Position numbers and translations under genes: made by a program
Notes under the pieces: generated by a model
Seen by the model: only the letters and a program-made list of their open reading frames with translations
Told to the model about the DNA's origin: nothing
Databases searched by the model: none
Shown here: positions 6,919-25,762 of the stretch, in pieces
Numbering within the stretch: position 1 is the stretch's first letter
How the letters are laid out: the number at the start of each line of letters is the position of its first letter
NCBI GenBank assembly: GCA_035709005.1
Contig: DASTFB010000110.1
Location: 1-43,102, forward strand
DNA length: 43,102 bases
Direction of reading: 5' to 3'
Origin: Candidatus Methylomirabilota bacterium
GTDB lineage: Bacteria; Methylomirabilota; Methylomirabilia; Rokubacteriales; CSP1-6

Positions 6919-8532
6919 GTGGCCGGGTCGCGACGCACCAAGATTCTCATCCTCGGAGGCGGCTGCGCCGGGGTCTACGCAGCCATGGCGCTGGAAAAGC
7001 ACCTCGGCCGAGACGCCGAAGTCGAGATCGGCCTGGTCAGCCGGGACAACTACCTCGTGTTCCAGCCGCTGTTGCCCGAGGTGATCTCCGGCAGCATCGG
7101 TATTCTGGACACCATCGCGCCGATTCGTCGCCTCTGCCCGAACACCAACCTCTACGTCCGCACGGTCGAGGGCATCGATCTGGAGAAGCGCGTCGTGACG
7201 ACCAGCTCGGGATTCCGCCCTCGCCCGTATCAGCTGGAATACGACCACCTGGTGCTCGCTCTGGGGAGTATCACGGACTTCGCCAGCCAGCCCGGGCTCC
7301 GCGAGCACGCGTTTCCGTTCAAGTACCTGGGCGATGCTCTCGTGCTCCGCAACCACATCATCCATGCTCTCGAAGAGGCCGATATCGAGCAGGACCCCCA
7401 GCTCCGTCAGGCGCTCCTGACGTTCGTGGTGGCCGGCGGGGGCTTTTCCGGTGTCGAGGTGGTGGCCCAGATCAACGACTTCGTCCGCAAGGTGGCGGGG
7501 AGCTTTCGCCACATCGAGAGGGACCGGATCCATGTGGTGCTGCTCGCGGGGGCGCGGATCCTGCCCGAGCTTCCCGAGGACCTGGCCGCTTTCGCGCACC
7601 AGGTGCTCCAGCGCAACGGCGTGGAGATTCGTTTGAACACGCGCCTGGCCGGGGCGACGGCCGACTCGGCGCTGCTGCAGCGGGGCGAGAAAATCCCCAC
7701 CAAGACACTGGTAAGCACCGTTCCTTCCGCGCCCAACCCGCTCCTCGCCGCGCTCGCATGCAAGAAGGATCGCGACCGCATCGTCGTGAACGACTATCTG
7801 GCGGTGCCGGACTTCCCCGGAGTCTGGGCCATCGGGGACTGTGCCTGGGTTCTGGATCGCCACACCGGGCAGCCTTGCCCGCCGACCGCCCAGCACGCGA
7901 CGCGCCAGGCCGTCTGCTGCGCCAACAACATCCTGGCGACACTCCGCGGTCGGGCGCCGCAGCCGTTCTCCTTCAAAGCCCTCGGAAAGTTGGGTGGCCT
8001 CGGCCATCATTCGGCGGTCGCCGAGATTCTCGACCTGAAGCTCTCCGGGTTCTTCGCCTGGCTCCTCTGGCGGCTGATCTACCTGATGAAGCTTCCAGGC
8101 CTCGATCGAAAGGTGAGGGTGGCAACCGACTGGTTCCTCGACCTCCTCCTCAAGCCTGACATCGTCCAGCTCCGGACCCACGACGCACCGGCCGTCGGCC
8201 GCGAGCACTTCGAGCCCCGGGAGACCATCTTCGAGCAGGGCGACCGCGGGGATCGCCTCTACATCGTCGTGGACGGTGAGGTGGAAGTGGTGAAGCGGGA
8301 CGCGGGCGGCAGCGAGGTCGTCCTCGCGGTGCTGGGCCCCGGGGACTGCTTCGGCGAGATGGCGCTGGTCAGCGACCTGCCACGAATGGCGTCCGCACGC
8401 AGCCGAACGAGCGTTAACCTTCTGACCGTGGACCGCACCGCGTTCTCCGCGCTCTTCGGCGCCCTGCCCCCGCTCCGCGGCCTGTTCCAGCAACTCATCG
8501 AGCAACGGAGCGCCGCCGTCGCCGAGCGATAA
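6919..8532 (+). CDS. Type II NADH dehydrogenase fused to a cyclic-nucleotide-binding domain
   Basis: 537 residues. Residues 1-420 form an NDH-2-type flavoprotein that passes electrons from NADH to quinone without pumping protons. They include the FAD-binding GGGCAGVY (13-20), NAD-binding VVAGGGFSGVE (170-180), FAD-contact GVWAIGDCAW (301-310) and the quinone-side PTAQHATRQA (322-331). Residues about 425-530 are a complete cNMP-binding domain (FEQGDRGDRLYIVVDGEVEVV) with phosphate-binding cassette FGEMALVSDLPRMASARS. Glu480 and Arg489 are the residues that in CAP-type domains contact ribose and phosphate, so ligand binding looks intact. The GTG at 6919 is the only start before the FAD motif: an in-frame TGA lies 7 bases upstream (6910-6912). 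No ribosome site is visible, and the message may be leaderless. Such fusions are known from databases; the regulatory effect is not. Confidence 0.88.
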   Translation: MAGSRRTKILILGGGCAGVYAAMALEKHLGRDAEVEIGLVSRDNYLVFQPLLPEVISGSIGILDTIAPIRRLCPNTNLYVRTVEGIDLEKRVVTTSSGFRPRPYQLEYDHLVLALGSITDFASQPGLREHAFPFKYLGDALVLRNHIIHALEEADIEQDPQLRQALLTFVVAGGGFSGVEVVAQINDFVRKVAGSFRHIERDRIHVVLLAGARILPELPEDLAAFAHQVLQRNGVEIRLNTRLAGATADSALLQRGEKIPTKTLVSTVPSAPNPLLAALACKKDRDRIVVNDYLAVPDFPGVWAIGDCAWVLDRHTGQPCPPTAQHATRQAVCCANNILATLRGRAPQPFSFKALGKLGGLGHHSAVAEILDLKLSGFFAWLLWRLIYLMKLPGLDRKVRVATDWFLDLLLKPDIVQLRTHDAPAVGREHFEPRETIFEQGDRGDRLYIVVDGEVEVVKRDAGGSEVVLAVLGPGDCFGEMALVSDLPRMASARSRTSVNLLTVDRTAFSALFGALPPLRGLFQQLIEQRSAAVAER

Positions 8533-8916: not shown

Positions 8917-9756
8917 ATGGCCTCTGAGAACATCGACGTCGCCGCAATCGCCACCCGGGCCCGCAATCTCCGGCGCCTCGTCATCGAGATGCTCGCGGCG
9001 GCCGCCTCGGGCCACCCTGGCGGGAGCCTTTCGGCGGCGGACATCATCGCCTGCCTCTATTTCGGGGTCATGCGCCACCGGCCGCAGGAGCCCTTCTGGG
9101 TGGATCGAGACAGGCTGGTCCTCTCGAAAGGGCACGCGTGCCCGGTCTTCTACGCGGCGCTCGCCGAGGCCGGCTACATCACTCACGATCTTCTGACCTC
9201 GCTGCGCCGGCTCGGCTCACCCCTGCAGGGCCATCCCGACCGGCGAAAGCTCGGACTGGTCGAGGCCTCCACCGGGTCGCTCGGCATCGGGCTGTCGATG
9301 GGCATCGGGATGGCGATCGCCGCCCGCCTGCGCGGAAGCCCCTGCCGGACCTATGTCATGCTCGGCGACGGCGAGTGCGAAGAGGGGCAGATCTGGGAAG
9401 CGGCAATGTACGCGCCGCACATCAAGCTCGGAAATCTCTGCGCGATCATCGATTTCAACCGTCTCCAGCTCGACGCGCGCGTCGACGAGATCACGGATCT
9501 CCAGCCGCTCGCGGACAAGTGGCGCGCGTTCAACTGGCATGTGCTGGAGATCGACGGGCACGATTACGACCAGATCCTGGACGCCTTCGCGAAGGCCGAG
9601 CGGGTCACGGAGCGTCCCACCGTCATCATCGCGGCGACCGTGAAGGGCAAGGGAGTGTCGTACATGGAGAACCAGCTCAAGTACCACGGCACTGTCCCCG
9701 ACAAGCCGGAGGATGTTCTCAAGGCCCTGGCCGAGCTGAGCGGGGGCAGGTCATGA
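8917..9756 (+). CDS. tktN: Transketolase, N-terminal (thiamine diphosphate-binding) subunit
   Basis: 279 residues: the first half of a split transketolase, which moves two-carbon ketol units between sugar phosphates in the non-oxidative pentose-phosphate pathway. Visible signatures are GHPGGSLSAADI near residue 31, SKGHACPVFYAAL, and the thiamine-diphosphate/Mg site GDGECEEGQIWEAA (GDG at 150-152) ending in DFNRLQ with Asn181. The ATG at 8917 has AAAGGAG 8 bases upstream. It is the first gene of the sugar-phosphate operon, and its TGA overlaps the ATG of the C-terminal subunit (ATGA), keeping the two halves in equal amounts. Confidence 0.93.
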   Translation: MASENIDVAAIATRARNLRRLVIEMLAAAASGHPGGSLSAADIIACLYFGVMRHRPQEPFWVDRDRLVLSKGHACPVFYAALAEAGYITHDLLTSLRRLGSPLQGHPDRRKLGLVEASTGSLGIGLSMGIGMAIAARLRGSPCRTYVMLGDGECEEGQIWEAAMYAPHIKLGNLCAIIDFNRLQLDARVDEITDLQPLADKWRAFNWHVLEIDGHDYDQILDAFAKAERVTERPTVIIAATVKGKGVSYMENQLKYHGTVPDKPEDVLKALAELSGGRS

Positions 9757-10742
9757 TCCGCCGCTGGACGTCACCGCTGGAGCCCGGCCTGGCCACGCGC
9801 GAGGCGTACGGCCGGACGCTCGCCGAGCTCGGCGAGGAGAACCCGCGCATCGTCGTGCTCGACGCCGACCTCTCAAAGTCGACCTACACCTCGCTCTTCG
9901 GCAAGAAGTTCAAGGACCGGTTCTTCGACGTGGGGATTGCCGAGGCCAACATGTGCTCGATGGCCGCGGGTCTCGCGGCGGGGGGCTTCATTCCGTTCGC
10001 TTCGAGCTTCGCGTCCTTCCTGATGTGCAAGGGCTACGAACAGCTCCGCGTCTGCTGCGCCTACATGGAGTTCAACGTGAACTTCGTGGGCAGCCACGGC
10101 GGAATCACACTCGGTGAGGACGGGCCGTCGCAGCAGTCGATCGAGGACGTCGCGCTGGCCTGTTCGTTGCCCGGCTTCACGGTGGCCGTGCCGGCGGATG
10201 AAGTGTCGACCGCGGCGTTGGTGCGGGCCGCGGCCGAGCACTACGGTCCGGTCTACATCCGGGTCGGGCGACCGCGTGCGCCCAAGATCTATGCGGCCGG
10301 CGAGCGGTTCTCCTTCGGCCGGGCCAAGACCCTCTCGTACGGGCGCGACGTCACGGTGGTCGCGAACGGCCTGATGGTCGGGGTCGCGTGTGAGGCTGCC
10401 GAGCTCGCCGAGCGCCGTGGCATCGACGTGCGGGTGATCGACTGCCATACCGCCAAGCCACTCGATGAGGCGACCATCGAGATCGCCGCCGCCGAGACCG
10501 GGGCGATCGTCGTGGCCGAGGAGCATCTGTCGCGGCCGGGACTGGGCAGCCTCGTCGCTCAGGCCGTCACCCATAGGCACCCTGTTCCCATGGAGTTTGT
10601 CGGGATGCCGGACGTGTTCGCCGAGTCCGGAACGCCCGAGGAGCTTCTCCGGGTCTACGGTCTCACGGCGGAACACATTCTCGGGGCCATCGATCGCGTC
10701 CTCACCCGGAAGGTCACGGGTGCGGCGGTCGTGGCCCACTAG
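9753..10742 (+). CDS. tktC: Transketolase, C-terminal subunit
   Basis: 329 residues beginning at the ATG that overlaps the stop of the N-terminal subunit. It carries the pyrimidine-binding and C-terminal domains. FFDVGIAEANMCSMAAGLA contains the glutamate (Glu64) that activates thiamine diphosphate in this family, followed by PFASSFASFL, GSHGGITLGEDGPSQQSIED and the C-terminal domain (VVAEEHLSRPGLGSLVAQ). It must pair with the N-terminal subunit to form an active transketolase. The open frame extends far upstream inside tktN, but that part is only an overlapping reading. The fusion gene tal-pgi follows after 9 bases. Confidence 0.93.
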   Translation: MIRRWTSPLEPGLATREAYGRTLAELGEENPRIVVLDADLSKSTYTSLFGKKFKDRFFDVGIAEANMCSMAAGLAAGGFIPFASSFASFLMCKGYEQLRVCCAYMEFNVNFVGSHGGITLGEDGPSQQSIEDVALACSLPGFTVAVPADEVSTAALVRAAAEHYGPVYIRVGRPRAPKIYAAGERFSFGRAKTLSYGRDVTVVANGLMVGVACEAAELAERRGIDVRVIDCHTAKPLDEATIEIAAAETGAIVVAEEHLSRPGLGSLVAQAVTHRHPVPMEFVGMPDVFAESGTPEELLRVYGLTAEHILGAIDRVLTRKVTGAAVVAH

Positions 10743-10751
10743 GAGGGCGAG

Positions 10752-13607
10752 ATGGCGCTCACCGACCTCCGACACTACGGCCAGAGCGTCTGGTACGACT
10801 ACATCAGTCGACACCTGCTGGCCTCTGGCGAGTTGTTGCGGATGATCACGGAAGACGGCCTGGGGGGCGTGACGTCCAATCCCACCATCCTCGAAGCGAG
10901 TGTGAACTACGGCAATGCGTACGACGAGGAGATCGCCATCCTCGCCCGGCGCGGGATGTCGGTCCAGGAGATCTACACCCGCATCGTGGTCGCCGATATC
11001 GCCGAGGCAGCGGATGTGTTGCACCCGGTCTATGATGCGACGAACGGGGCCGATGGCTACGTCAGCCTCGAGGTGTCCCCGGCCCTCGCGCACGACGCGG
11101 ATGGCACCGTGGCGGAGGGGATCGCTCTGTGGAAGCTGCTCAACCACGACAACGTGATGATCAAGGTTCCCGGCACGGACGCCGGCTTCGATGCGGCCCG
11201 CCGCCTCATCGCCGAGGGCGTGAACGTCAACATCACCACGCTGTTCTCCGTGGCGGACTATGAGGCGGCCGTGCAGGCCTACCTCGATGGGCTGAAGGAC
11301 CGCACGGCGAAGGGGCTGGACGTCTCGAAGGTTGCGTCCGTAGCCAGCTTCTTCGTGAGCCGTGTGGACACCGCGGTGGACAAGGCCCTGGACCGGATGA
11401 TCACCGCGGCGCGCGCCGCGGGCGACAAGGGGCGCCTGGAGGCGTTGAAGGGGAAGGCGGCGATCGCCAACACGAAGCTGGTGTACCAGCGCTTCCAGCA
11501 GCTCTTCTCGAGCCCCGAGTTCCAGAAGCTCGAGTCGTTGCGCGCGCGTCGGCAGCGGCCGCTGTGGGCGTCAACGGGGACCAAGAATCCCAAATACAGC
11601 GACGTGCTCTACATCGAGGAGCTGGTCGGGGCCGACACCGTGAATACGATGCCGCCTGGCGCCCTCAACGCCTTCCGTGACCACGGCAAGGCGCGCCCCA
11701 CGATCACCAGCGACGTGGACGCTGCGCGCAATGTGTTCAGCGAGCTGGCGAAGGCGGGCGTCGACACGTCGGCGATCCTGAAGCAGCTCAAGGCCGATGC
11801 CGTTACCACGTTCGCCGATTCCTTCACCCTGCTCCTGCTCGGCATCGACACCAAACGCAAGGCGGCGCTGCTGCGGGGCCGTTACGAGGTCGCGGGCGCG
11901 GGTCTCGGCAAGGCGCTGGATCGATTCAATATCGAGTTCCAGCTGTCCGGCTTCGCCAGAGGCCTCTGGTCCAAGAAGGCCGAGCTCTGGTCGGACGACC
12001 CGGACGAGCAGAAGCGCATCGCCAACCGCCTGGGCTGGCTCGAGGTCCCCGAGCTGATGGCCAAGAGTCTGGGCCGCCTCACGCGCTTCGCCGAAGGCGT
12101 GCGCAAGGACGGCATCAAGCACGTCGTGCTGCTGGGCATGGGCGGCTCGAGCCTCGCGCCCGAGGTGATGCGCGCCGTGCTCGGCGTCCAGCCCGGGGCG
12201 CCGGCCTTCGCCATGCTCGACTCGACCGATCCAGGGGCGATCGATGCGGTGGAGCATTCGCTGGCAATCAGGGAAACCCTCTTTCTCGTCGCGAGCAAGT
12301 CGGGGACGACGATCGAGCCCAACACGCTGGCCGCCTATTTCAAGCGGAAGCTGGAGGCCGCGGGAGTCAAGCAACCGGGCCGTCACCTGGTAGCGATCAC
12401 CGACGAGGGAACGCAGCTGCACGAGCTCGCCCAGCAGGAAGGCTACCGTGACATCTTCGTGAACCCGTCGGACATCGGTGGGCGCTACTCGGCGCTGTCC
12501 TTTTTCGGGATGGTGCCGGCTGCGCTCATGGGTCTCGACGTCAGCGGGCTGCTGGCGTGGGGGCGAGGCATGGCGCTCCTGTGCGGCCCGACGAACGCCA
12601 TCGGGCAGAACCCGGGCGTGGCGCTGGGGATCGTCATGGGTAGCGCGGCCCGGGCAGGACGGGACAAGCTCACGCTCATCACCGGCCCGCGGCTCAGATC
12701 GTTCGGCCTCTGGGTCGAGCAGCTCATTGCCGAGTCCACCGGCAAGAAGGGCACAGGCATCGTCCCCATTGCCGGCGAAGCGCTCGGTACGCCGGAGGTC
12801 TACGGCAATGACCGGTTGTTCGTACGGCTGCGCCTGCATGGAGGCGATCCCGAGGAGCACGACCGCGACGGCAAGGTCGAGCGGCTTCGAGCGGCCGGCC
12901 ACCCCATCGTGACCATCCGGCTCGTCGAGCCCCTCGGGATCGGCGCCGAGTTCCTGCGCTGGGAGATCGCGACGGCGACGGCCGGGGCCATTCTCGGGAT
13001 CAATCCCTTCGACGAGCCGAACGTGCAGCAGGCCAAGGACGCCACCAAGGTGCTCCTCAAGCAGTATCTGGCGGAGCGGAGCCTGGCCGCGCCGGGGCCC
13101 CAGTTCACCGTCGACGACGTGAGCCTCACCTTCAACAAGGTCGTTCTCGACAAGATCGGTCAGGAGCACCGGGCTACGGGCCCGGCCCTGCGGGCGTTTG
13201 TAGACCTCATCCAGCCCGGTGATTACGTGGGGCTGCTCGCCTATCTGCCCCCCCGGCCGGACGTGGAGAGCCGACTCGAGCGTGTCCGCGGAGCGTTCAG
13301 GAGCAGCAAGCGGGTGGCGACCACCCTGGGGTTCGGGCCGCGCTACCTCCATTCCACGGGACAACTCCACAAGGGGGGCATGAACAGCGGTCAGTTCGTC
13401 GTGATCACCGCGGACCCCAAGCAGGATCTCACGATTCCCGGCGAGGCGTTCTCGTTCGGCGTGCTCGAACTGGCGCAGGCGCTCGGGGACTTCGCCTCGC
13501 TGGAGGCGGCGGGTCGTCGCGCGCTCCGTCTCCATCTTCCCGCCGCCGATCCAGCGGCACTCGACCGAGCCTGCGGCCTCCTCGAGGCCGCGCTCGGGCA
13601 CAAGTAG
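10752..13607 (+). CDS. tal-pgi: Bifunctional transaldolase / glucose-6-phosphate isomerase
   Basis: 951 residues, a fusion of two enzymes. Residues 1 to about 370 are transaldolase, which transfers a dihydroxyacetone unit: GGVTSNPTILEAS near 38 and NVMIKVPGTDAG with the Schiff-base lysine Lys138. From about residue 385 the protein is glucose-6-phosphate isomerase: GMGGSSLAPEV (from 462), SKSGTTIEP (515-523) and GGRYSALSFFG. The roughly 180-residue tail (LLAYLPPRP, TLGFGPRYLHSTGQLHKGG) belongs to the isomerase part of this fusion type. The enzyme joins the exit of the non-oxidative branch (fructose-6-P) to glucose-6-P, the entry of the oxidative branch encoded just downstream. GAGGGCGAG precedes the ATG. 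Similar fusions are known in several phyla. Confidence 0.93.
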   Translation: MALTDLRHYGQSVWYDYISRHLLASGELLRMITEDGLGGVTSNPTILEASVNYGNAYDEEIAILARRGMSVQEIYTRIVVADIAEAADVLHPVYDATNGADGYVSLEVSPALAHDADGTVAEGIALWKLLNHDNVMIKVPGTDAGFDAARRLIAEGVNVNITTLFSVADYEAAVQAYLDGLKDRTAKGLDVSKVASVASFFVSRVDTAVDKALDRMITAARAAGDKGRLEALKGKAAIANTKLVYQRFQQLFSSPEFQKLESLRARRQRPLWASTGTKNPKYSDVLYIEELVGADTVNTMPPGALNAFRDHGKARPTITSDVDAARNVFSELAKAGVDTSAILKQLKADAVTTFADSFTLLLLGIDTKRKAALLRGRYEVAGAGLGKALDRFNIEFQLSGFARGLWSKKAELWSDDPDEQKRIANRLGWLEVPELMAKSLGRLTRFAEGVRKDGIKHVVLLGMGGSSLAPEVMRAVLGVQPGAPAFAMLDSTDPGAIDAVEHSLAIRETLFLVASKSGTTIEPNTLAAYFKRKLEAAGVKQPGRHLVAITDEGTQLHELAQQEGYRDIFVNPSDIGGRYSALSFFGMVPAALMGLDVSGLLAWGRGMALLCGPTNAIGQNPGVALGIVMGSAARAGRDKLTLITGPRLRSFGLWVEQLIAESTGKKGTGIVPIAGEALGTPEVYGNDRLFVRLRLHGGDPEEHDRDGKVERLRAAGHPIVTIRLVEPLGIGAEFLRWEIATATAGAILGINPFDEPNVQQAKDATKVLLKQYLAERSLAAPGPQFTVDDVSLTFNKVVLDKIGQEHRATGPALRAFVDLIQPGDYVGLLAYLPPRPDVESRLERVRGAFRSSKRVATTLGFGPRYLHSTGQLHKGGMNSGQFVVITADPKQDLTIPGEAFSFGVLELAQALGDFASLEAAGRRALRLHLPAADPAALDRACGLLEAALGHK

Positions 13608-13617
13608 GAGGAGACCG

Positions 13618-14514
13618 ATGGAACTGGGGTTTGTCGGACTCGGCAGGATGGGCATGAACATGGTGCGCCGGCTGCAGCGGGACAAGCATCGCGTCGTGAC
13701 CTACGACCGGTCGCCGGACACCGTGAAGGAGTCGATGCAGGAGGGCGCCGTTGGCGCCACCTCCCTGAAGGACATGGTCGCCAGGCTGACACCGCCCCGG
13801 GCGGTGTGGGTCATGGTACCGGCCGGGCCGCCGACCGAAAGTACGGTCAGCGAGCTGGTGGACATCCTGCAGGCCGATGACGTGATCATCGACGGAGGGA
13901 ACTCCTACTACAAGGACGACGCGCGAAGGGCCGAGGCGCTGAAGGGCAAGGGCCTTCACTACGTCGACGCGGGCACCAGCGGTGGGATCTGGGGGCTGAA
14001 GGTGGGCTACTGCCTGATGATCGGCGGCGAGGAGGCGATCTTCCGGCGCCTGGAGCCCATCTTCAAAACGCTGGCTCCCGAGAGCGGTTACGCCTACATG
14101 GGCTCGGCCGGCGCGGGCCACTACGTCAAGATGATCCACAACGGCATCGAGTACGGCATGATGCAGGCGTACGCCGAGGGGTTCGAGCTGCTCCACAAAA
14201 GCAGCTTCAAGCTGGACCTTCCCAAGATCGCCGACCTGTGGATGCAGGGGAGCGTCGTCCGGTCCTGGCTCCTGGAGCTCGCCGGCTCGGCCCTGCAAGA
14301 CGATCCCAGGCTCGAGAAGATCAAGGGGCACGTGGACGATTCGGGCGAGGGCCGCTGGACGGTGCTGGACGCGATCGAGAAAGACGTGCCGGCCATGGTG
14401 CTGACTTCGTCCCTCTTCACGCGGTTCCGTTCGCGGCAGGAGGAGTCGTTCGCCGACAAGATGCTGGCGGCGCTCCGTAACGCTTTCGGTGGGCACGCCG
14501 TCAAGAAGGCGTAG
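13618..14514 (+). CDS. gnd: 6-phosphogluconate dehydrogenase, decarboxylating (short type)
   Basis: 298 residues, the short class of 6-phosphogluconate dehydrogenase (the NADP class has about 470). It oxidises and decarboxylates 6-phosphogluconate to ribulose-5-P. The Rossmann motif GFVGLGRMGMNM starts at residue 4; VIDGGNSYYKDD and DAGTSGGIWGLKVGYCLMIGG bind substrate; KMIHNGIEYGMMQ supplies the catalytic Lys171 and Asn175. The second beta strand ends in VVTYDRS, with an acidic Asp30 where NADP-specific forms carry Asn-Arg-Thr. In this family an acidic residue there points to NAD+, which fits the known preference of short-type members. AGGAGG lies just upstream of the ATG, 10 bases after tal-pgi. 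Confidence 0.92.
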   Translation: MELGFVGLGRMGMNMVRRLQRDKHRVVTYDRSPDTVKESMQEGAVGATSLKDMVARLTPPRAVWVMVPAGPPTESTVSELVDILQADDVIIDGGNSYYKDDARRAEALKGKGLHYVDAGTSGGIWGLKVGYCLMIGGEEAIFRRLEPIFKTLAPESGYAYMGSAGAGHYVKMIHNGIEYGMMQAYAEGFELLHKSSFKLDLPKIADLWMQGSVVRSWLLELAGSALQDDPRLEKIKGHVDDSGEGRWTVLDAIEKDVPAMVLTSSLFTRFRSRQEESFADKMLAALRNAFGGHAVKKA

Positions 14515-14529
14515 CGAGGGGATACGTCC

Positions 14530-16071
14530 ATGGTCGAGGTGCGCGCGCCGAACCCTCTCACGGCAGGACTCGCGCAGAACCTGATCCCCCAGCCCTGCAC
14601 GCTGGTGATCTTCGGTGGGGCCGGGGATCTGAGCGCTCGTAAGCTGCTGCCGGCTCTCTATAATTTGTCGGTCGACGGGTTACTGCCGGCCAACTTCGCG
14701 ACGGTCGGCTTCGCCCGCGAGGAAATGGACGACGCGGCCTTCCGCGCTCACGCCCGAAAGGGCATCGAGCGCTTCTCGCGCCGTCCTCTCGACGAAGCGC
14801 ACTGGGGGCAGTTTTCGCGATCGCTCTTCTACGTGCCCGGGATCTTCACGGACGCCCAGGCCTATGCTCAGCTCAGGCGGCGGCTGGAAAAGGTCGAGGC
14901 GGAGTTTGGGATTCCGGGAAATCGGGTCTTCTACCTCTCGATCCCGCCGAGCTTGATCGCCGCGTGCCTCCAGCAGCTGCGCGCGGGGGGGTTCGTGGCG
15001 GACCCGCACGAGGGGCCGATCTCCCGGGTGATCGTGGAGAAACCGGTCGGACGCGATCTGGCGAGCGCGCGTGAGATCAACGCCACGCTGGCCCAGACCT
15101 TCGATGAGTCGCAGACCTTCAGGATCGATCACTATCTCGGCAAGGAAACGGTCCAGAACATCCTCGTGCTTCGATTCGGGAACTCGGTGCTCGAGCCGCT
15201 GTGGAACGCGAAGTACGTGGATCACGTCCAGCTCACGGTCGCGGAGGAAGAGGGCGTCGGAGTCCGCGCCGGCTACTACGAAGAAGCGGGCGCGCTGCGC
15301 GACATGGTGCAGAACCACATTCTCCAGGTCCTGGCCCTCATCGCCATGGAGCCCCCCTGGTCGCTGGATGCCGAGAACGTCCGGGATGCGAAGCTGAACC
15401 TGCTGCGGTGCCTGCGGCCGCTGCGGGGGAGCGACGTGGATCGGCAGGTGGTGCGGGCCCAGTACGGTCCCGGTTACCTGCACGGCGAAGAGGTGCCGGG
15501 CTATCGGCGTGAGGACGGGGTGCGCCGGGATTCGACGACCGAGACGTACGTCGCCCTGAAGCTCTTCATCGACAACTGGCGCTGGGCGGGGGTGCCCTTC
15601 TACGTTCGAACGGGCAAGCGCCTGCCCAAGCGCGTCACCGAGGCGGCGATCCAGTTCAAGCCGGTGCCCGAGATCCTGTTCAACACCAGCCGGGATGCCC
15701 CGCTCGACCCGAACGTCCTGGCGCTCCGCATTCAGCCGGACGAAGGCTTCTCGATGCGCCTGTCGTCCAAGCTGCCCGGCCCCAAGGTACGGATCTACCC
15801 CGTCAAGATGGACTTCCGATACGGGGCCACCTTCGGGGACTCCTCGCTGGAGGCGTACGAGCGTCTGCTGCTCGACGTCATGGCCGGGGACGCGACCCTG
15901 TTCATGCGTCGGGACGCCGTGGAGGCGGCGTGGGCGTGGGTGACCGGCATGCTCGAGGCCTGGGAAGCGAGTCGCTCGCGCTATCTGCCCGAGTACCCGG
16001 CGGGCAACTGGGGCCCGGTCGAGGCCGATCGACTCATCGAGGCCGACGGCCGCACGTGGAGGACCCTCTGA
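14530..16071 (+). CDS. zwf: Glucose-6-phosphate 1-dehydrogenase
   Basis: 513 residues, full length for the family. It catalyses the first step of the oxidative pentose-phosphate pathway, glucose-6-P to 6-phosphogluconolactone with reduction of NAD(P)+. The cofactor motif FGGAGDLSARKLLPALY starts near residue 28, EKPVGRDL lies near 178, and the substrate signature RIDHYLGKE spans 198-206 with Asp200, His201 and Lys205. The C-terminal half has the usual YVRTGKRLPKRVTE and FRYGATFGDSSLEAYERLLLDVMAGDATLF. Its last 16 bases overlap opcA, whose product is needed for full activity of this enzyme in cyanobacteria. Confidence 0.95.
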   Translation: MVEVRAPNPLTAGLAQNLIPQPCTLVIFGGAGDLSARKLLPALYNLSVDGLLPANFATVGFAREEMDDAAFRAHARKGIERFSRRPLDEAHWGQFSRSLFYVPGIFTDAQAYAQLRRRLEKVEAEFGIPGNRVFYLSIPPSLIAACLQQLRAGGFVADPHEGPISRVIVEKPVGRDLASAREINATLAQTFDESQTFRIDHYLGKETVQNILVLRFGNSVLEPLWNAKYVDHVQLTVAEEEGVGVRAGYYEEAGALRDMVQNHILQVLALIAMEPPWSLDAENVRDAKLNLLRCLRPLRGSDVDRQVVRAQYGPGYLHGEEVPGYRREDGVRRDSTTETYVALKLFIDNWRWAGVPFYVRTGKRLPKRVTEAAIQFKPVPEILFNTSRDAPLDPNVLALRIQPDEGFSMRLSSKLPGPKVRIYPVKMDFRYGATFGDSSLEAYERLLLDVMAGDATLFMRRDAVEAAWAWVTGMLEAWEASRSRYLPEYPAGNWGPVEADRLIEADGRTWRTL

Positions 16072-17181: not shown

Positions 17182-17937
17182 ATGAGTGCGGTTCGGATCC
17201 TGCCCGACGCCGAGACGTTGAGCCGCGCGGCGGCGCGGGAGTTCGTGGAGCTCAGTCAGCGGGCCGTCGTGGCCCGTGGACGCTTCGGCGTGGCGCTCGC
17301 GGGAGGCGTCACGCCGCGCCGCATCTACGAGCTGCTCGCCGAGCCCGAGCATCACGATCAGGTGGACTGGGCCCGCGTCGAGGTCTTCTGGGGTGACGAA
17401 CGTCCCGTGCCGCCCGAGCACCCGGACTCGAACTACGGGATGGCCGCCGCGGCCTTGCTCACGAAGGTCGACCTGCGGCCGGAGCAGATTCATCGGATTC
17501 AGGCCGAGCGGCCGAACCGCCAGGCGGCGGCGTGCGACTACCAGGTCGAGATTGGCCGGGTCCTCGGGGTGAGCCCGGACGGGTCCCCCCCGGTATTCGA
17601 CCTGATCCTGCTCGGGCTGGGAGCCGACGGCCACACCGCGTCGCTGTTCCCGAACACCGAGGCCCTGCGCGAGCGGCACCGCCACGTGGTGGCAAACCTC
17701 GTCCCGAAGCTCGGATCCGAGCGGATCACGCTCACCTTCCCGGTCATCAACCAGGCCAGCGATATCCTGGTCGTCGTGACGGGCGCCGAGAAGGCAGGGA
17801 CCCTCCGGGCGGTGCTGGAAGGGCCGCGTGACGTCGAACGACTGCCCTCACAATCCCTCAACCCGGTGGCGGGGCGGCTCACGTGGCTGGTCGACCGAGC
17901 GGCAGCGAGCGAGCTGACCCCCTCAGGTGGCGCATGA
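17182..17937 (+). CDS. pgl: 6-phosphogluconolactonase
   Basis: 251 residues from ATG 17182, 7 bases after the opcA stop. It hydrolyses 6-phosphoglucono-lactone to 6-phosphogluconate. The SugP_isomerase-type signatures are present: FGVALAGGVTPRRIYELL, VEVFWGDERPVPPEHPDSNYGMA, and the active-site loop LILLGLGADGHTASLFPNT. With zwf, opcA and gnd it completes the oxidative branch. No clear ribosome site precedes it, so it is probably translated by coupling. Its stop overlaps the ATG of fbp (ATGA). Confidence 0.93.
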   Translation: MSAVRILPDAETLSRAAAREFVELSQRAVVARGRFGVALAGGVTPRRIYELLAEPEHHDQVDWARVEVFWGDERPVPPEHPDSNYGMAAAALLTKVDLRPEQIHRIQAERPNRQAAACDYQVEIGRVLGVSPDGSPPVFDLILLGLGADGHTASLFPNTEALRERHRHVVANLVPKLGSERITLTFPVINQASDILVVVTGAEKAGTLRAVLEGPRDVERLPSQSLNPVAGRLTWLVDRAAASELTPSGGA

Positions 17938-18932
17938 ACGAGATCAGCGCGCGCTTCGAACAGCACCTGCGAACAGACGCCGGAATCGGCGACCTGGCCC
18001 TCGTGTTGAACCAGATCGCCGTAGCCGGCAAGCTCCTCGCCCGGGAGTTGTCGCGGGCCAGCCTGATGGGCCGCCTCGGCACGACCGGTGAGGTGAACGT
18101 GCAGGGGGAGGTGGTCAAGAAGCTCGACGTCTGGGGCAACGACGTGATGGTCGGGGCGCTCAAGGCCAGCGGGGTCGTCTGCACGATGGTCTCCGAGGAA
18201 ATGGACGAGCCGCTGCACGTCGCCGATCGCTGCGCCGCAGGCAAGTACGTGGTGTGCTTCGACCCGGTCGACGGGTCCTCCAACCTGGACATCAACGGCA
18301 TCGTGGGCACGATCTTCTCCATCCGCCGCCAGCATGGACACGGAGGCGATCACGTCGCGCCGGACGCGATGCAGCCGGGGACGGCCCAGGTCGCGGCCGG
18401 CTACGTCATGTACGGGCCGAGCACGATGCTGGTCTACACGGCGGGGGCCGGTGTTCATGCCTTCACGCTCGATCCGACGATCGGCGAGTTCGTGCAGTCG
18501 TACCGAAAAATTCAGATTCCAAATCGCGGGCGCATTTACAGCGTGAACGAGGCGCACGCGCCGGCCTGGCAGCCGGGCATTCTCCGGTACATCGACTACC
18601 TGCGAGCCCGGGATCCGGCCACGGGACGCCCCTACACCGGGCGCTATGTGGGCTCGATGGTCGCCGACGTGCACCGCACGCTGCTCGAGGGGGGCATCTT
18701 CCTCTACCCCGCGGAGGTCGGCGCCGACGGAAAGGCAACCGGGAAGCTGAGACTCCAGTACGAAGCCGCGCCGATGGCGTTTGTCATCGAGCAGGCCGGT
18801 GGTAAGGCGAGCACAGGACGCGAGCGAATCCAGGACATCCGCCCCGGCTCCGTGCACCAGCGGATTCCGCTGGCCATCGGCAGCGCGGAGGACGTGGCCG
18901 TTGCAGAGGAGTTCGTGGCGGGTCGTCGCTGA
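17934..18932 (+). CDS. fbp: Class I fructose-1,6-bisphosphatase
   Basis: 332 residues from ATG 17934, which overlaps the pgl stop; the frame is open further upstream but the overlap defines the start. It removes the 1-phosphate of fructose-1,6-bisphosphate, the irreversible step of gluconeogenesis. The metal and substrate signature CFDPVDGSSNLDINGIVGTIFSI is intact, as are GYVMYGPSTMLVYT, RYVGSMVADVHRTLLEGGIFLYP and KLRLQYEAAPMAFVIEQAGG. In this operon it recycles triose phosphates back to fructose-6-P together with the aldolase that follows 14 bases later. FBPase in an otherwise catabolic cluster supports cyclic rather than linear flux. Confidence 0.94.
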   Translation: MNEISARFEQHLRTDAGIGDLALVLNQIAVAGKLLARELSRASLMGRLGTTGEVNVQGEVVKKLDVWGNDVMVGALKASGVVCTMVSEEMDEPLHVADRCAAGKYVVCFDPVDGSSNLDINGIVGTIFSIRRQHGHGGDHVAPDAMQPGTAQVAAGYVMYGPSTMLVYTAGAGVHAFTLDPTIGEFVQSYRKIQIPNRGRIYSVNEAHAPAWQPGILRYIDYLRARDPATGRPYTGRYVGSMVADVHRTLLEGGIFLYPAEVGADGKATGKLRLQYEAAPMAFVIEQAGGKASTGRERIQDIRPGSVHQRIPLAIGSAEDVAVAEEFVAGRR

Positions 18933-18946
18933 CACGGGGGCTGCTC

Positions 18947-19864
18947 ATGAGCGATCGGGTCAAAGAGATCATCAGCTGGTACGGCGCCGACAATCCCGGC
19001 ACTCTCACGAATCTCGCCTGTTTGATGAATCACGGCCGGCTGGCCGGCACGGGCCGGATGGTCATCCTGCCCGTGGACCAGGGCTTCGAGCACGGGCCAG
19101 CCCGGAGCTTCGCGCCGAATCCGCCGGCCTACGACCCGCGGTACCACTTCGAACTGGCGATCGAGTCCGGATGCAACGCGTATGCGGCGCCCCTGGGCTT
19201 CCTCGAGGCCGGGGCGCGCGAGTTCGCCGGGGAGGTGCCGCTGATTCTCAAGCTCAACGATCACGACGTCCTACTCGAGGAGCCGGATCCGACTCAGGCT
19301 CTGACCGGCAGTGTGGGCGACGCGCTGCGCCTCGGCTGCGTCGGCGTCGGGTTCACGATTTACCCGGGGTCGATTCATCGGCTCGAGATGTACAGCCAGA
19401 TCCGGGCGCTCGCCGAGGAGGCCAAGCGCTACGGTCTCGTCGTGGTGATCTGGTCCTACCCGCGCGGCTCAGGGCTCTCGAAGGCGGGTGAGACGGCGAT
19501 CGACGTCACCGCGTACGCGGCGCACATCGCGGCGCAGCTCGGTGCCCACATCATCAAGGTGAAGCTACCGACGGCCCACACTGAGCAGGAGGCCGCCAAG
19601 AAGGTGTACGAGAAGGAACGAGTCCCGGTGGGCACACTGGCCGAGCGCGTGCGTCATGTCGTCCAGTCCACCTTCAACGGGCGTCGGGTGGTGATCTTCT
19701 CGGGCGGGCCGACGCAGGAGCGCGACGAGGTGGTCTTCGAGGAGGCCCGAGCGATCCGCGACGGTGGGGGCTTCGGCTCGATCATCGGTCGGAACTCGTT
19801 TCAGCGCAAGAAGCCGGAAGCCCTGGCGTTCCTGAGGACGATCATGGAGATCTACGCGAAGTGA
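18947..19864 (+). CDS. fba: Class I fructose-bisphosphate aldolase (DhnA/FbaB type)
   Basis: 305 residues. A DhnA/FbaB-type aldolase that interconverts fructose-1,6-bisphosphate with dihydroxyacetone phosphate and glyceraldehyde-3-phosphate through a Schiff base. The signatures VILPVDQGFEHGP (near 39), GCVGVGFTIYPGS (near 130), HIIKVKLPTAH with candidate Schiff-base lysines Lys204/Lys206, and IFSGGP near the phosphate-binding end are all visible. It is flanked by fbp and glk; its TGA overlaps the GTG of glk. With FBPase it would run in the condensing direction to return trioses to the hexose pool. Confidence 0.92.
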   Translation: MSDRVKEIISWYGADNPGTLTNLACLMNHGRLAGTGRMVILPVDQGFEHGPARSFAPNPPAYDPRYHFELAIESGCNAYAAPLGFLEAGAREFAGEVPLILKLNDHDVLLEEPDPTQALTGSVGDALRLGCVGVGFTIYPGSIHRLEMYSQIRALAEEAKRYGLVVVIWSYPRGSGLSKAGETAIDVTAYAAHIAAQLGAHIIKVKLPTAHTEQEAAKKVYEKERVPVGTLAERVRHVVQSTFNGRRVVIFSGGPTQERDEVVFEEARAIRDGGGFGSIIGRNSFQRKKPEALAFLRTIMEIYAK

Positions 19865-20853
19865 CGACGATCCTGGCCGGAGACGTCGGCGGCACGAAGA
19901 CGGTGGTGGCGCTCTTCGAAGAGGCGGAGGGCGCGCTCCGGCTGGTGCGCGACATGACGCTGCCGAGCCGCGAGTTCCCCGGTCTGGAACCGATCATTCG
20001 CCACTTCCTCGAGGCCGGCCCTACGCCGACGGTCGACGCAGCTTGTTTCGGCGTGGCCGGTGCGGTCATCGACGGACGATGCGAGGCGACGAACCTGCCC
20101 TGGGCGCTCGAGGAAAAGAGCCTGCTGGACACCATCCCGACGCCCCGGGCGATGCTCCTCAACGACCTCGAGGCTGCTGCCTGGGGGGTGATGGAGCTGC
20201 CCCCCAGGGACCTGCTGACACTGCAGGTCGGCGCCCCCCGGACGGGGAACATGGCGCTCATCGCCGCTGGCACGGGGCTCGGGGAAGCCCTGATCGTTTG
20301 CGACGGCATGCGTCGGATCGTGGTCGCGTCAGAGGGCGGTCACGCCGACTTCGCCCCCCGTACCGAGCGCCAGAGCGAGCTGCTTGCCTACCTCCGTGGC
20401 GAGTTCGGTCATGTCAGCTACGAGCGCCTGCTCTCCGGGCCCGGGCTGTTCAACATCTACCGCTTTCTGCGCGAGAGGAGCGGCGCGGCCGAGCCGCGGT
20501 GGCTCACTGAGCGCATGGACCGCCTGGGCAGTAGCGCCGCCATCTCGGAGGTCGCGCTCGCCGGCGAGCATCCACTTTGCGTCGAGGCGCTCGACCTGTT
20601 CGCCTCGATCTACGGTGCCGAGGCCGGGAACCTGGCTCTCAGGGCGCTCGCCGTGGGCGGCGTCTACGTCGGCGGGGGGATCGCGCCCAAGATCCGGACG
20701 AAGCTCGCCGGCGGCAGCTTCATCGCGGCATTCCGCGACAAGGGCCGCTTCGCTGGTCTGATGGAGTCGATCCCGGTGCGTCTGGCGCTCGATCCGCGAG
20801 CCCCGCTGCTCGGGGCGGCCCGCGTCGCCAGCGACGCGCACCTCGCGCGATAG
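19861..20853 (+). CDS. glk: Glucokinase (Glk family)
   Basis: 330 residues from GTG 19861, overlapping the aldolase stop. It phosphorylates free glucose to glucose-6-P. The ATP-binding DVGGTKTVVALF lies at residues 8-19; DAACFGVAGAVIDGRCEATNLPW and LLNDLEAAAWG are the glucose-side motifs; GTGLGEALI and EGGHADFAPRTERQSELLAYLRGEFGHVSYERLLSGPGL are diagnostic of the proteobacterial-type Glk family rather than ROK kinases. It is the last gene of the operon and feeds glucose, possibly from the glycosidases downstream, into the pathway. Confidence 0.93.
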   Translation: MTTILAGDVGGTKTVVALFEEAEGALRLVRDMTLPSREFPGLEPIIRHFLEAGPTPTVDAACFGVAGAVIDGRCEATNLPWALEEKSLLDTIPTPRAMLLNDLEAAAWGVMELPPRDLLTLQVGAPRTGNMALIAAGTGLGEALIVCDGMRRIVVASEGGHADFAPRTERQSELLAYLRGEFGHVSYERLLSGPGLFNIYRFLRERSGAAEPRWLTERMDRLGSSAAISEVALAGEHPLCVEALDLFASIYGAEAGNLALRALAVGGVYVGGGIAPKIRTKLAGGSFIAAFRDKGRFAGLMESIPVRLALDPRAPLLGAARVASDAHLAR

Positions 20854-20910
20854 CGCCCGGCCGATCGTCCCCTGTTCGCCCCAGGCCCGCGACCGGGATC
20901 AGCCCTTGAC

Positions 20911-20983
20911 GCTCCGCGGAGCCTCCTTTTCTCGCGGGCGCCGACGCGCCGGGCCCGAGTTCCGGCGGAGGCGACCTCCGCCG
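20911..20983. terminator. Palindrome and 9-bp hairpin after glk
   Basis: The spacer after glk holds a 12-base palindrome GCTCCGCGGAGC at 20911-20922 followed by CTCCTTTT, and a perfect 9-bp stem-loop at 20963-20983 (CGGCGGAGG, loop CGA, CCTCCGCCG). Neither is a textbook terminator with a long T-run, but together they mark the likely end of the operon just before the next promoter. The second could instead be an operator, as it ends only 4 bases before the -35 box. Confidence 0.5.
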
Positions 20984-20986
20984 CGC

Positions 20987-21016
20987 TTGACAATGATCGT
21001 TGGCGTCTCTAGTAAT
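20987..21016 (+). promoter_or_regulatory. Candidate sigma-70 promoter of the glycosidase genes
   Basis: A perfect -35 box TTGACA (20987-20992) is followed after 18 bases by AGTAAT (21011-21016), the best -10 in reach. It sits between the hairpin after glk and the GH63-like gene, giving a leader of about 90 nucleotides. The perfect -35 in this GC-rich context makes it a good candidate. Confidence 0.55.
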
Positions 21017-21113
21017 CGACCTCCGGAGGCACTCATGACGCATCAGCAACTGAACGGCCGCAACGGCGCTCGTCATCGGCATGAGGTTGAGCGCCCGGAA
21101 GGGATGCTCCCCG

Positions 21114-23768
21114 ATGGCCGCCCGTTCTGAAGAGGAAAAGCGCCTCGCCGAGGCGCGCGCGCGGACAGCGCACTGGAAGCGGTGGGGCCCCTACCTGGCG
21201 GAGCGTCAGTGGGGAACGGTCCGCGAAGATTACTCCCCGCACGGCACCGCGTGGGACTACTTCCCGCACGACCACGCGCGGCGGCGGGCGTATCGCTGGG
21301 GCGAGGACGGCCTGCTCGGGATCTCCGACAATCACCAGTACCTGTGCTTCGCGCTAGCCCTCTGGAACGAGAAGGACCCTTTTCTCAAAGAGCGGCTATT
21401 CGGACTGTCGGCCCCCCAGGGCAACCACGGCGAGGACGTCAAGGAGTACTATTTCTACCTCGACTCGACGCCGACCCACTCCTACATGCGCGCGCTCTAC
21501 AAATATCCCCAGGCCGAGTTCCCGTATGCCTGGCTCGTGGAAGAGAACGCGCGGCGAGGCCGCGAGGACCCGGAGTTCGAGCTGCTCGATACCGGGATCT
21601 TCGACGACGACCGCTATTTCGACGTGTTCGCCGAGTATGCGAAGGCCGCGCCCAACGACGTGCTGGTCCGCCTGACCGTGGTCAATCGCGGGCCGGAGAC
21701 GGCCCCGCTCCACCTCCTGCCGACGCTTTGGTTCCGGAACACGTGGGCGTGGGACCGCGACGCCGAGCGACCGAGCCTCGGCTTCGGCGGCACGGTAGGC
21801 GGCGCCGGGCACCTGCGCGCCGAACACCCCGCCCTCACCGGGCTCTACCGCCTCTTCTACGAGGGCAACCCCGAACTGCTCTTCACCGAGAACGAGACGA
21901 ACTTCCGGCGGCTGTACGGCACCGAGAATGCCCAGCGCTTCGTGAAGGACGCCTGCCACGACGCCGTCATTCACCGCCGGGCGTCAGCCGTCAACCCTGT
22001 GCCGGAGGGCACCAAGGCCGCGCTTCATTATTCGTTTCGCATCCCGCCCGGTCAGGCCGTCGTCGTGCGCCTCCGGCTCACCGACCGCTATCCGGAGGGT
22101 AACCCGTTCGGCGCCCTCTTCGACGCGGTGTACGCGCAGCGCCAAGAGGAGGCGGATGCCTTCTACGCCTCGGTCATCCCCCAGAAGCTCAGCGCTGACG
22201 CGCGAAGCGTCATGCGTCAGGCTCTGGCGGGGATGCTGTGGTCCAAGCAATGGTATCACTACGACGTGCGCCGTTGGTTGGACGGCGACCCCACACAGCC
22301 GCCGCCGTCCCCGGACCGCAAGCGGGCCCGTAACCGCGATTGGGCCCACCTCTACAACGACGATGTCATCTCGATGCCCGACAAGTGGGAGTACCCGTGG
22401 TATGCGGCCTGGGACCTCGCATTTCACACCGTGGCGCTCGCGCTGGTGGACCCGGATTTCGCCAAGGAGCAGCTCGTCCTGTTCCTGCGCGAGTGGTACA
22501 TGCATCCGAACGGCCAGATCCCGGCCTACGAGTGGGCGTTCTCCGACGTCAACCCGCCCGTGCACGCCTGGGCCGCCTGGCGCATCTATAAGATCGAGCG
22601 GCGAATCCGCGGCCGCGCCGACCCTGAGTTCCTCGAACGCGTCTTCCACAAACTGCTCCTGAACTTCACCTGGTGGATCAACCGCAAGGACCCGGAAGGG
22701 AAGAACGTCTTCCAGGGCGGGTTCCTCGGGCTCGACAACATCGGCGTCTTCGACCGGAGCGCGCCGCTGCCTACCGGCGGAACGATCGAGCAGTCCGACG
22801 GCACGGCCTGGGTCGGCATGTACTGCCTCAACATGCTCGCCATGGCCCTCGAGCTGGCGCGCGACAACCCCGCCTACGAGGACGTCGCGTCGAAGTTCTT
22901 CGAACACTTCGTCTACATCGCGTACGCCATGAACAACATCGCCGGGGAGGGGATCCAGCTCTGGGACCGAGAGGACGGGTTCTTCTACGACGTGCTCCAC
23001 TTTCCCGACGGCTTCGTCTGCCCGCTGAAGATCCGCTCGATGGTAGGGCTGATCCCCCTCCTCGCCGTCGAGACCCTCGAGCCCGAGATCATGACGGCGT
23101 TGCCGCGCTTCTCACGCCGGATGATGTGGTTCCTCAAGAACCGGCCGGATCTGCAACACCACGTCGTCCGGCAGGACACGCCCGACGGGACCACCCGCCG
23201 GCTGCTCGCGCTCGTCACCGACGTGCGGCTCGCGAGCGCGCTGCAGTACATGCTGGACGAACGGGAGTTCCTCGCCCCCCACGGGATCCGGTCGCTCTCC
23301 GAGTACCACCGCGATCACCCCTACGTCTTCCGCGTGCACGACCAGGAGTATCGGGTCCAGTACGACCCGGCGGAATCGACGACCTCGTGCTTCGGTGGCA
23401 ACTCGAACTGGCGCGGCCCGATCTGGTTCCCGGTGAACTTCTTGTTGATCGAGGCGCTCCAGAAATTCGACCACTTCTATGGCCACCGCTTCAAGGTCGA
23501 GTTCCCGACGGGGTCTGGCCGACTGCTCACGCTCTGGGAAGTCGCCGCCGAGATCTCCCGGCGGCTGACCCACCTCTTCCTGCTCGGGCCGGATGGCCGC
23601 CGGCCCGTCCACGGCAGCGCGGAGAAGTTTCAGAGGGATCCGCACTGGCGCGACCTCGTTCTCTTTTACGAGTACTTCCGGGGCGACAGCGGTGCCGGGC
23701 TCGGCGCCAGCCATCAGACGGGCTGGACCGGCCTCGTGGCCAAGCTCCTCCAGCAGAGCGGCGAGTAG
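21114..23768 (+). CDS. MGH1-like / GH63-type glycoside hydrolase
   Basis: 884 residues from ATG 21114, preceded by GGAAGGGA at 21097-21104; an ATG at 21081 has no ribosome site. There is no signal peptide, so the enzyme is cytoplasmic. It matches the large glucosidase family with an MGH1-like (alpha/alpha)6-barrel related to GH63: an N-terminal beta-rich domain ([28 protein letters not shown] near residues 45-75) and a C-terminal barrel with [21 protein letters not shown] (near 425) and [23 protein letters not shown] (near 465). It ends with a catalytic-half motif, [19 protein letters not shown]. Family members act on alpha-glucosides or on mannosyl-/glucosylglycerate. The substrate is not determined; glk upstream and GH15 downstream favour glucose release from a cytoplasmic storage or solute sugar. 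Confidence 0.82.
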
Positions 23769-23926
23769 CGTTGCCGGGCCGCGACGATGGCGATCACCAC
23801 GAACACGCGCTCAGCGGCGTCCCGGCCGCGGTGGCCTGGGGACACCAGCCGCCGAGTCCTGGCGCGTCGATGCCTGCTCTGGCGGGCGAGGGGGCCCGTG
23901 ACCGAGCCCTGTAGGAGAGGCGGACT

Positions 23927-25762
23927 ATGGCGTATCAGCCCATCGAGAACTACGGCATCATCGGGGACCTCCACACGGTGGCCCTGGTCGGCGTGGACGG
24001 ATCCATCGACTGGCTCTGTCTCCCGCGGTTCGACTCGCCAAGCGTGTTCGCCGCCATCCTTGACGACACGAAAGGTGGACATTTTCGGATCGCGCCCGTG
24101 TACGGGGACGTGAGGCGGAAGCAGCTTTACTGGCCGGACACCAACGTTCTGATCACGCGCTTCCTCTCGCCCAACGGGGTGGCGGAGCTCACCGACTACA
24201 TGCCGGTGGGGCGGGGGCCCGACGGAGACGGCCACCACCGAGTGGTGCGCCGTGTCACGGCTGTCCGGGGGAGCATCCCCTTCCGGATCGAGTGCTATCC
24301 GGCCTTCAACTACGCCCGCGATCCGCACGACACCTACGTGAGCACAGGGGGGGCGGTGTTCCGCTCGGCAGGTCTCAGTCTCGGCCTCGCCACACCGATC
24401 CCGCTCAAGGCCGACGACCGTGGCGTGGCCGCGGAGTTCACCCTCCACGACAACGAGAGCGCCACCTTCGTCCTCCAGCAAGTCCCGGCCGGGGTCGGCT
24501 GCGGGGTCAGCCTCTCCGAGACGGAGTCGGAGATGCTGTTCGAAGCGACGGTCGAGTACTGGCGACGGTGGATTGCCAAGTGTACCTATACCGGGCGCTG
24601 GCGGGAGATCGTTCGCCGCTCGGCGCTGGCGCTCAAGCTCCTCACGTACGAGCCCACCGGCGCGATCGTGGCGGCGCCGACGTGCAGCCTTCCCGAGTGC
24701 CTGGGCGGCGAGCGGAACTGGGACTATCGGTACACCTGGATCCGCGACGCGGCGTTCACCGTCTACGGGCTCCTCAGGCTCGGCTTCACCGAGGAGGCGG
24801 CTCGCTTCATGGGATGGATCGAGGCCCGCTGCCACGAACTGAATCCAGACGGATCGCTCCAGATCATGTACGGGATCGACGGGCGCCACACCCTCACCGA
24901 GGAAAGCCTCGATCACCTGGATGGCTACCGGGGCTCTCGTCCCGTGCGCATCGGCAATGGCGCGTACAGCCAACTCCAGCTGGATATCTATGGGGAGCTG
25001 ATGGACTCCGTCTACCTCTACAACAAGCACGGCAGCCCGATCTCCTACGACTTCTGGGTTCATCTCCGCCGGCTCACCAACTGGGTCTGCGACAACTGGC
25101 AGCGCCAGGACGATGGGGTCTGGGAGTCCCGTGGTGGCCGGCAGCACTTCGTCTACTCCAAGCTCATGTGCTGGGTCGCGGTGGATCGCGCCTTGCGTCT
25201 CGCCGACAAGCGCTCGTTCCCGGCCGACCGCGAGCGGTGGTCGAAGACCCGCGACCAGATTTACGAGGAGATCATGACCGAGGGGTGGAGCCCGGGCCGA
25301 CAGGCCTTCGTCCAGCATTACGGCAGCGCCAGCCTGGACGCCGCGAATCTCATCATGCCCCTCGTGTTCTTTCTGTCGCCGACCGATGGCCGCATGCTGA
25401 GGACCCTGGAGGCCATTCTCGCGCCCCCCGAGCGCGGGGGGCTCGTCTCCAACAGCCTCGTCTACCGCTACAACGTGAACGAGACGCCCGATGGGCTCAC
25501 TGGCGAGGAAGGGACCTTCAACATCTGCACGTTCTGGTTAGTCGAGGCCATGACGCGGGCAGGGCGGAATGACCGCGCGCTGCTCGAGCGGGCACGCCTC
25601 ATGTTCGAGCAAATGCTCGGCTACGCCAGTCACCTGGGCCTGTACGCCGAGGAAACGGGCCCGACCGGCGAGGGGCTGGGGAACTTCCCCCAGGCCTTCA
25701 CACACCTGGCGGTGATCAGCGCGGCCTACAACCTGGACCGGGCGCTCGGCGCCCGCGGGTAG
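23927..25762 (+). CDS. GH15 family glycosidase (glucoamylase/trehalase type)
   Basis: 611 residues with AGGAGAGG upstream of ATG 23927. The N-terminal beta domain ([45 protein letters not shown]) is the trehalase/glucoamylase-associated N-domain. The catalytic (alpha/alpha)6 barrel shows [19 protein letters not shown] near residue 264 and [22 protein letters not shown] near 526, the region of the catalytic glutamates. There is no signal peptide, so it is intracellular. GH15 enzymes of this form include glucoamylases and bacterial trehalases; the sequence alone does not separate them. Either would liberate glucose for glk. The 158-base gap before it contains nothing recognisable beyond the ribosome site. 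Confidence 0.9.

Follow-up and report, generated by a model that had tools for sequence, protein, structure and literature searches.

Can the entry of reducing power into a respiratory chain be adjusted directly by a cyclic nucleotide? The question is raised by one gene of a soil bacterium, lying in the window, as we call the whole analysed stretch of 43,102 nucleotides (contig DASTFB010000110.1 of the Candidatus Methylomirabilota bacterium assembly GCA_035709005.1). An initial annotation had read the product as an NADH dehydrogenase fused to a ligand-competent cyclic nucleotide (cNMP)-binding domain and had proposed control of NADH oxidation by cAMP. The gene has these features:

6919..8532, + strand: NDH-2-like flavoprotein with a C-terminal cNMP-binding domain (open reading frame, 537 aa, GTG start)
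6940..7911, + strand: Pyr_redox_2, two-dinucleotide-binding flavoprotein domain, residues 8-331 (Pfam, 5e-38)
6955..6972, + strand: FAD GxGxxG motif GGGCAG, residues 13-18 (alignment)
7435..7458, + strand: second motif GGGFSGVE (GxGxxGxE), residues 173-180, with the NDH-2 catalytic Glu, E180 (compared with PMC5299459)
7543..7548, + strand: site of the missing acidic NADH-selecting residue, Leu209-Ala210 (deleted in the window copy)
7714..7725, + strand: STVP, residues 266-269, where NDH-2 has WxxG (compared with PMC5299459)
7888..7905, + strand: quinone-site motif AQHATR (AQxAxR variant), residues 324-329 (alignment)
7984..8139, + strand: NDH2_C membrane-anchoring region, residues 356-407 (Pfam, 9e-8)
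8104..8190, + strand: linker, approximately residues 396-424, pLDDT <50 (predicted model)
8203..8457, + strand: cNMP-binding domain, residues 429-513 (Pfam, 9e-25)
8350..8400, + strand: phosphate-binding cassette FGEMALVSDLPRMASAR, with Glu480 at 8356-8358 and Arg489 at 8383-8385

The composition of the protein is as first annotated. The Pyr_redox_2, NDH2_C and cNMP_binding matches each exceed their own Pfam cut-offs, the last (PF00027) at 86.9 bits against a gathering score of 27.5. When residues 5-401 of the predicted model (mean pLDDT 81.7) were compared with solved structures (Foldseek and VIA-align), NDH-2s ranked first at Z 41-43 over ~380 residues, and the next fold families, FSP1, sulfide:quinone reductase and flavocytochrome c, followed at Z ~31; a fold search with residues 4-412 also listed NDH-2 chains. 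With the bacterial enzymes of Caldalkalibacillus thermarum (4nwz) and Staphylococcus aureus (5na1) the fusion shares the fold (Z 41-42), the FAD and second dinucleotide motifs, a quinone motif of the AQxAxR kind and a C-terminal membrane region; it differs from them in its cNMP-binding tail and in lacking both WxxG and the acidic NADH-selecting residue. The cNMP domain is well formed in the model at residues 426-536, including two C-terminal helices.

The two missing elements bear on the electron donor. WxxG occurs in 99-100% of 1762 NDH-2s, its Trp lying near the adenine of NADH (PMC5299459). That Trp is found in none of the 49 fusions, as against 46 of 53 non-fused relatives, and its loss tracks gain of the tail; because WxxG is absent, we call the protein NDH-2-like rather than file it as a plain NDH-2. 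The acidic residue corresponds to E272 of Ndi1, proposed to exclude NADPH (PMC11670749); among the fusions its site holds His in 42, Glu in two and another residue or a deletion in five. A bacterial NDH-2 that prefers NADPH is known, S. aureus NDH-2B (PMC11302666), and it is a possible donor model for the fusion, although it has no sensor domain. Given this precedent and the loss of both residues (the acidic one in 47 of 49), the donor is better called NAD(P)H than the NADH of the initial annotation, and in the fusions it may be NADPH or both nucleotides.

The same two losses could be taken further, to mean that the flavoprotein half has ceased to act as a pyridine-nucleotide dehydrogenase and draws on some other electron donor under cyclic-nucleotide control. 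We think this very unlikely, since GxGxxGxE is retained, the catalytic Glu (E180) is present in 49 of 49 fusions, the sugar-dehydrogenase neighbours described below point plainly to NAD(P)H as donor, and NDH-2B illustrates that NDH-2s can switch to NADPH. The YD and GD pairs of NDH-2 fall at Y108 D109 and G306 D307 of the window protein. For the acceptor side, NDH-2 quinone motifs are AQxAxQ, AQxAxR or APxAxQ; the fusion has AQxAxR, the form that occurs in 15% of NDH-2s (PMC5299459).

We turn to the ligand site of the tail. Its conservation is strong: Glu480 is present in 49 of 49 fusions and Arg489 in 47, with His in the other two, F478 and G479 are invariant across the alignment (n=49), and all four rank among the best-conserved positions of the cNMP domain. 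Glu480 and Arg489 thus hold the places in the cassette first assigned to them, and their retention in the relatives means that the cassette match is not chance. In the window cassette, GDCFGEMALVSDLPRMASAR, they stand 9 residues from each other, the spacing of PKA-type sites. Such conservation is expected if the ligand site is under selection, and it supports the reading of an NDH-2-type flavoenzyme whose cNMP domain is ligand-competent.

A competent site may nevertheless serve something other than catalysis. The tail could bind its nucleotide and serve in localisation or oligomerisation, for instance by docking to a partner such as the stand-alone cNMP protein encoded alongside, with no allosteric effect on catalysis. 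The linker is long and of low confidence (pLDDT <50), so that the model shows no readable coupling path or contact between the domains, and stand-alone cNMP-domain genes do adjoin the fusion at seven loci: L145 (8686-9249), L146, L154 (11432-11998), L157, L167, L168 and L172. We nonetheless regard a pure localisation module as improbable, because ligand-contact residues kept in 47 to 49 of 49 fusions, together with the cyclase pairing presented below, favour sensing, whatever the effect of that sensing. At L145, L154 and L160 there are also related genes nearby, one of them with a CxxCH cytochrome-c-like sequence.

The fusion is far from confined to this contig. Full-length homologues (66-68% identity) occur in records titled Candidatus Rokuibacteriota, close fusions are found in ~20 of 95 genomes of its own phylum, and others in a second phylum (records titled Acidobacteria) and in the phylum of locus L007 (titled Deltaproteobacteria). 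Two carriers are cultured, Gemmatirosa kalamazoonensis and Rhodobacter sp. CZR27; both have the fusion on their replicons, where it is annotated only as 'FAD-dependent oxidoreductase' (WP_096787383.1 in Rhodobacter). In a tree built from the NDH-2 domain only (102 rows), the 49 sampled fusions form one clade (SH-aLRT 99) requiring one change, so that among the sequences sampled the fusion has a single origin, and an old one. A branch that includes L007 and Gemmatirosa has added a CBS pair after the cNMP domain (NDH2-cNMP-CBS-CBS; L007:5989-8004, L163:7944-10016, L188 and L201), suggesting a second nucleotide sensor within the same enzyme. A Shinella plasmid match (H11/L164) that looked full-length by TBLASTN was not counted as a fusion, its frame stopping at 440 aa without a cNMP domain.

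If the tail senses a cyclic nucleotide, a cyclase might be expected to keep company with it. The surroundings of the window gene are as follows:

8917..16071, + strand: pentose-phosphate genes (transketolase N and C, transaldolase-PGI fusion, 6PGDH, G6PDH)
17883..25762, + strand: sugar genes (FBPase, DeoC/LacD-type aldolase, glucokinase, MGH1/GH63-type glucosidase, GH15)
31011..33098, + strand: CHASE2 class III nucleotidyl cyclase, ~22.5 kb beyond the end of the window gene, with Lys at its base-specifying site

A cyclase in the same window had been offered as a partner. It is indeed present, but lying more than 20 kb off and being one of 17 in its genome it carries little weight alone, and we dropped it as evidence of partnership. 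The family is more informative. In five genomes a class III cyclase gene lies upstream of the fusion on the same strand, with gaps of 22 bp (L152), ~80-110 bp (L157) and ~76 bp (L005), and abutting it at L156 and L158. Counting cyclases within 2.5 kb of a fusion, we observed five against 0.34 expected (Poisson 3e-5; 22 fusions, 19 genomes); because four of the five linked loci have an orthologous cyclase, the conservative count is two events, for which P = 0.046. In the genome of the window, a second copy of the fusion, on contig C1, has a cyclase ~640 bp downstream in convergent orientation, 71-76% identical and orthologous to the linked cyclases. The cyclase beside the L005 fusion is the sole class III cyclase of a 4.4 Mb genome; genome G230, too, has just one, on the fusion's own contig at a distance of 10.7 kb, and G319 carries one 1.9 kb from its fusion. 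Most fusions lack a cyclase gene within 2.5 kb, and a class III search found none in nine of 14 fusion genomes of the L007 phylum, where some assemblies are small. Taken together, gene positions support a partnership of cyclase genes with the fusion at the level of the family. Other cNMP-domain proteins of the window's genome also lie ~6-10 kb from class III cyclases (G000: C106, C14 and C104), and local pairing of cyclase and sensor may be general there.

The linked cyclases offer a clue to the ligand. Class III guanylyl cyclases have Glu instead of Lys at the base site and a varied second residue other than Asp (PMC4215837), and in the guanylyl cyclase Cya2 one Glu-to-Lys change leads to ATP use (PMC5995499). 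At these two sites the cyclase beside the C1 fusion has E/S, and those at L152, L156 and L158 have E/A; these four look like guanylyl cyclases. The L005 cyclase has K/D, the adenylyl type, and the window cyclase K/E, and neither matches the guanylyl-cyclase pattern; among eleven cyclases examined in the window's genome, Glu is at the base site in the C1 cyclase only. The initial assumption of cAMP as ligand may therefore not hold throughout: cyclase base-site residues make cGMP the likely ligand for the C1 lineage, and cAMP the likely one at L005. The residue following the cassette Arg is T or S beside cyclases of guanylyl type, N beside the adenylyl type (L005) and M in the window copy, which hints that this position reflects ligand choice, in numbers too small to use.

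The second recurrent neighbourhood is that of sugar oxidation. The window gene does lie just before the pentose-phosphate operon, as first annotated, with the first such gene 385 bp on. In the same phylum the neighbours of fusions include glucokinase, 6PGDH, FBPase, G6PDH, GMC oxidoreductase, glycogen debranching enzyme and GH63; in the second phylum a debranching enzyme or a transketolase adjoins the fusion, and in Rhodobacter a GMC oxidoreductase is 3 kb from it. At L132:3361-8593 the genes for GMC oxidoreductase, glycogen debranching enzyme and the fusion protein form a single run, overlapping or without gaps, with variants of this run at L147, L148 and L153; it looks like a conserved polysaccharide-to-respiration operon. 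Two side observations concern the window itself. A single protein of 951 aa (window:10752-13607) joins transaldolase to phosphoglucose isomerase, and on the 5' side of the fusion (window:271-6838) are genes for a porin, a di-haem oxidoreductase, a DoxX-like protein, a 229-aa protein without a family and a PDZ protein, the last ending 80 bp before the fusion.

The genome of the window encodes three NDH-2/cNMP fusions, the window copy and those at C1:30973-32562 and C104:2676-4253, and, on C87, at least one tail-less NDH-2 relative. On the same strand, the C104 copy is followed by a gene for a type II/III secretion secretin (L133:615-2582), an odd partner. The window copy has five radical changes at sites at least 95% conserved in the family (F16C, E184Q, R233N, G286D and G372D); the C1 copy has none of them. 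By motif alignment E184 corresponds to the E176 of PMC5299459, which that paper places in a carboxylate wire. On account of these five changes the window copy may be altered or weakened. A stronger version of this reading is that it is a decaying or sub-functional paralogue, one of three, and that the C1 copy, with its cyclase and its GMC and debranching genes, is the working member. We consider decay unlikely, though the least unlikely of the alternatives weighed here: the reading frame is intact, the cNMP domain is well kept, and orthologues of the window copy in two genomes, at 79% identity, are also near glucokinase, FBPase and G6PDH genes.

We therefore return to the explanation that we lean towards and hold to be rather probable as a whole, namely that the fusion is an NDH-2-type NAD(P)H:quinone oxidoreductase whose cyclic-nucleotide-sensing tail adjusts the entry of sugar-derived reductant. 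The sequences of the family show a fusion of single origin with a near-invariant ligand site and recurrent cyclase and sugar-oxidation neighbours. The enzyme would be membrane-associated and of a single subunit, and would reoxidise the reduced pyridine nucleotide (NADH, NADPH or both) supplied by the glucose and oxidative pentose-phosphate module, with quinone as electron acceptor. A cGMP or cAMP molecule bound by the tail would alter the activity of the enzyme, in one direction or the other, or its membrane docking, and a cyclase signal would thereby set the rate at which sugar-derived reductant enters respiration. We infer activity for the window copy in particular as well. More tentatively, and with less than even confidence, we propose a widespread bacterial family of NAD(P)H:quinone dehydrogenases that cyclic nucleotides gate directly (for the C1 lineage, cGMP from a dedicated guanylyl cyclase), in which the paired-CBS branch would let entry into respiration integrate second-messenger and possibly adenylate signals.

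Cyclic nucleotides in bacteria are mostly thought to work through CRP-type regulators. A metabolic enzyme whose fused cNMP domain belongs to the same family as that of the fusion is the mycobacterial Pat (Rv0998 / MSMEG_5458), a cNMP-dependent lysine acetyltransferase; its sensor is N-terminal and, unlike the fusion, it is not a respiratory enzyme. The match of the Pat family (NF058543) to the window protein spans the cNMP part only. The nearest working analogue is plant NDB1, which Ca2+ activates by way of an inserted EF-hand (PMC4587368). As proposed for the fusion, the plant external NAD(P)H dehydrogenases NDB1 and NDB2 (PMC4587368) join a single-subunit quinone reductase to a domain sensing a second messenger; theirs responds to Ca2+, is inserted in a loop and is eukaryotic, whereas the fusion is bacterial with a C-terminal cNMP domain. 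The likeness would be one of principle, the fusion being no member of the NDB1 family. Ligand-regulated NDH-2 is already known in NDB1; in the open-licence PMC papers searched we found no description of a cNMP domain joined to NDH-2 or to another oxidoreductase, a weak kind of absence.

Our sequence comparisons suggest that bacteria can tune respiration directly by a second messenger through this fusion family. If true, direct and fast cyclic-nucleotide control of a respiratory dehydrogenase would couple a second messenger to electron flow without transcription. The idea is testable in the cyclase-linked homologues, in the genome that has just one class III cyclase and in the cultured Rhodobacter homologue. 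It would also help to account for the 17 class III cyclases and 11 cNMP-domain proteins encoded in the genome from which the window comes.
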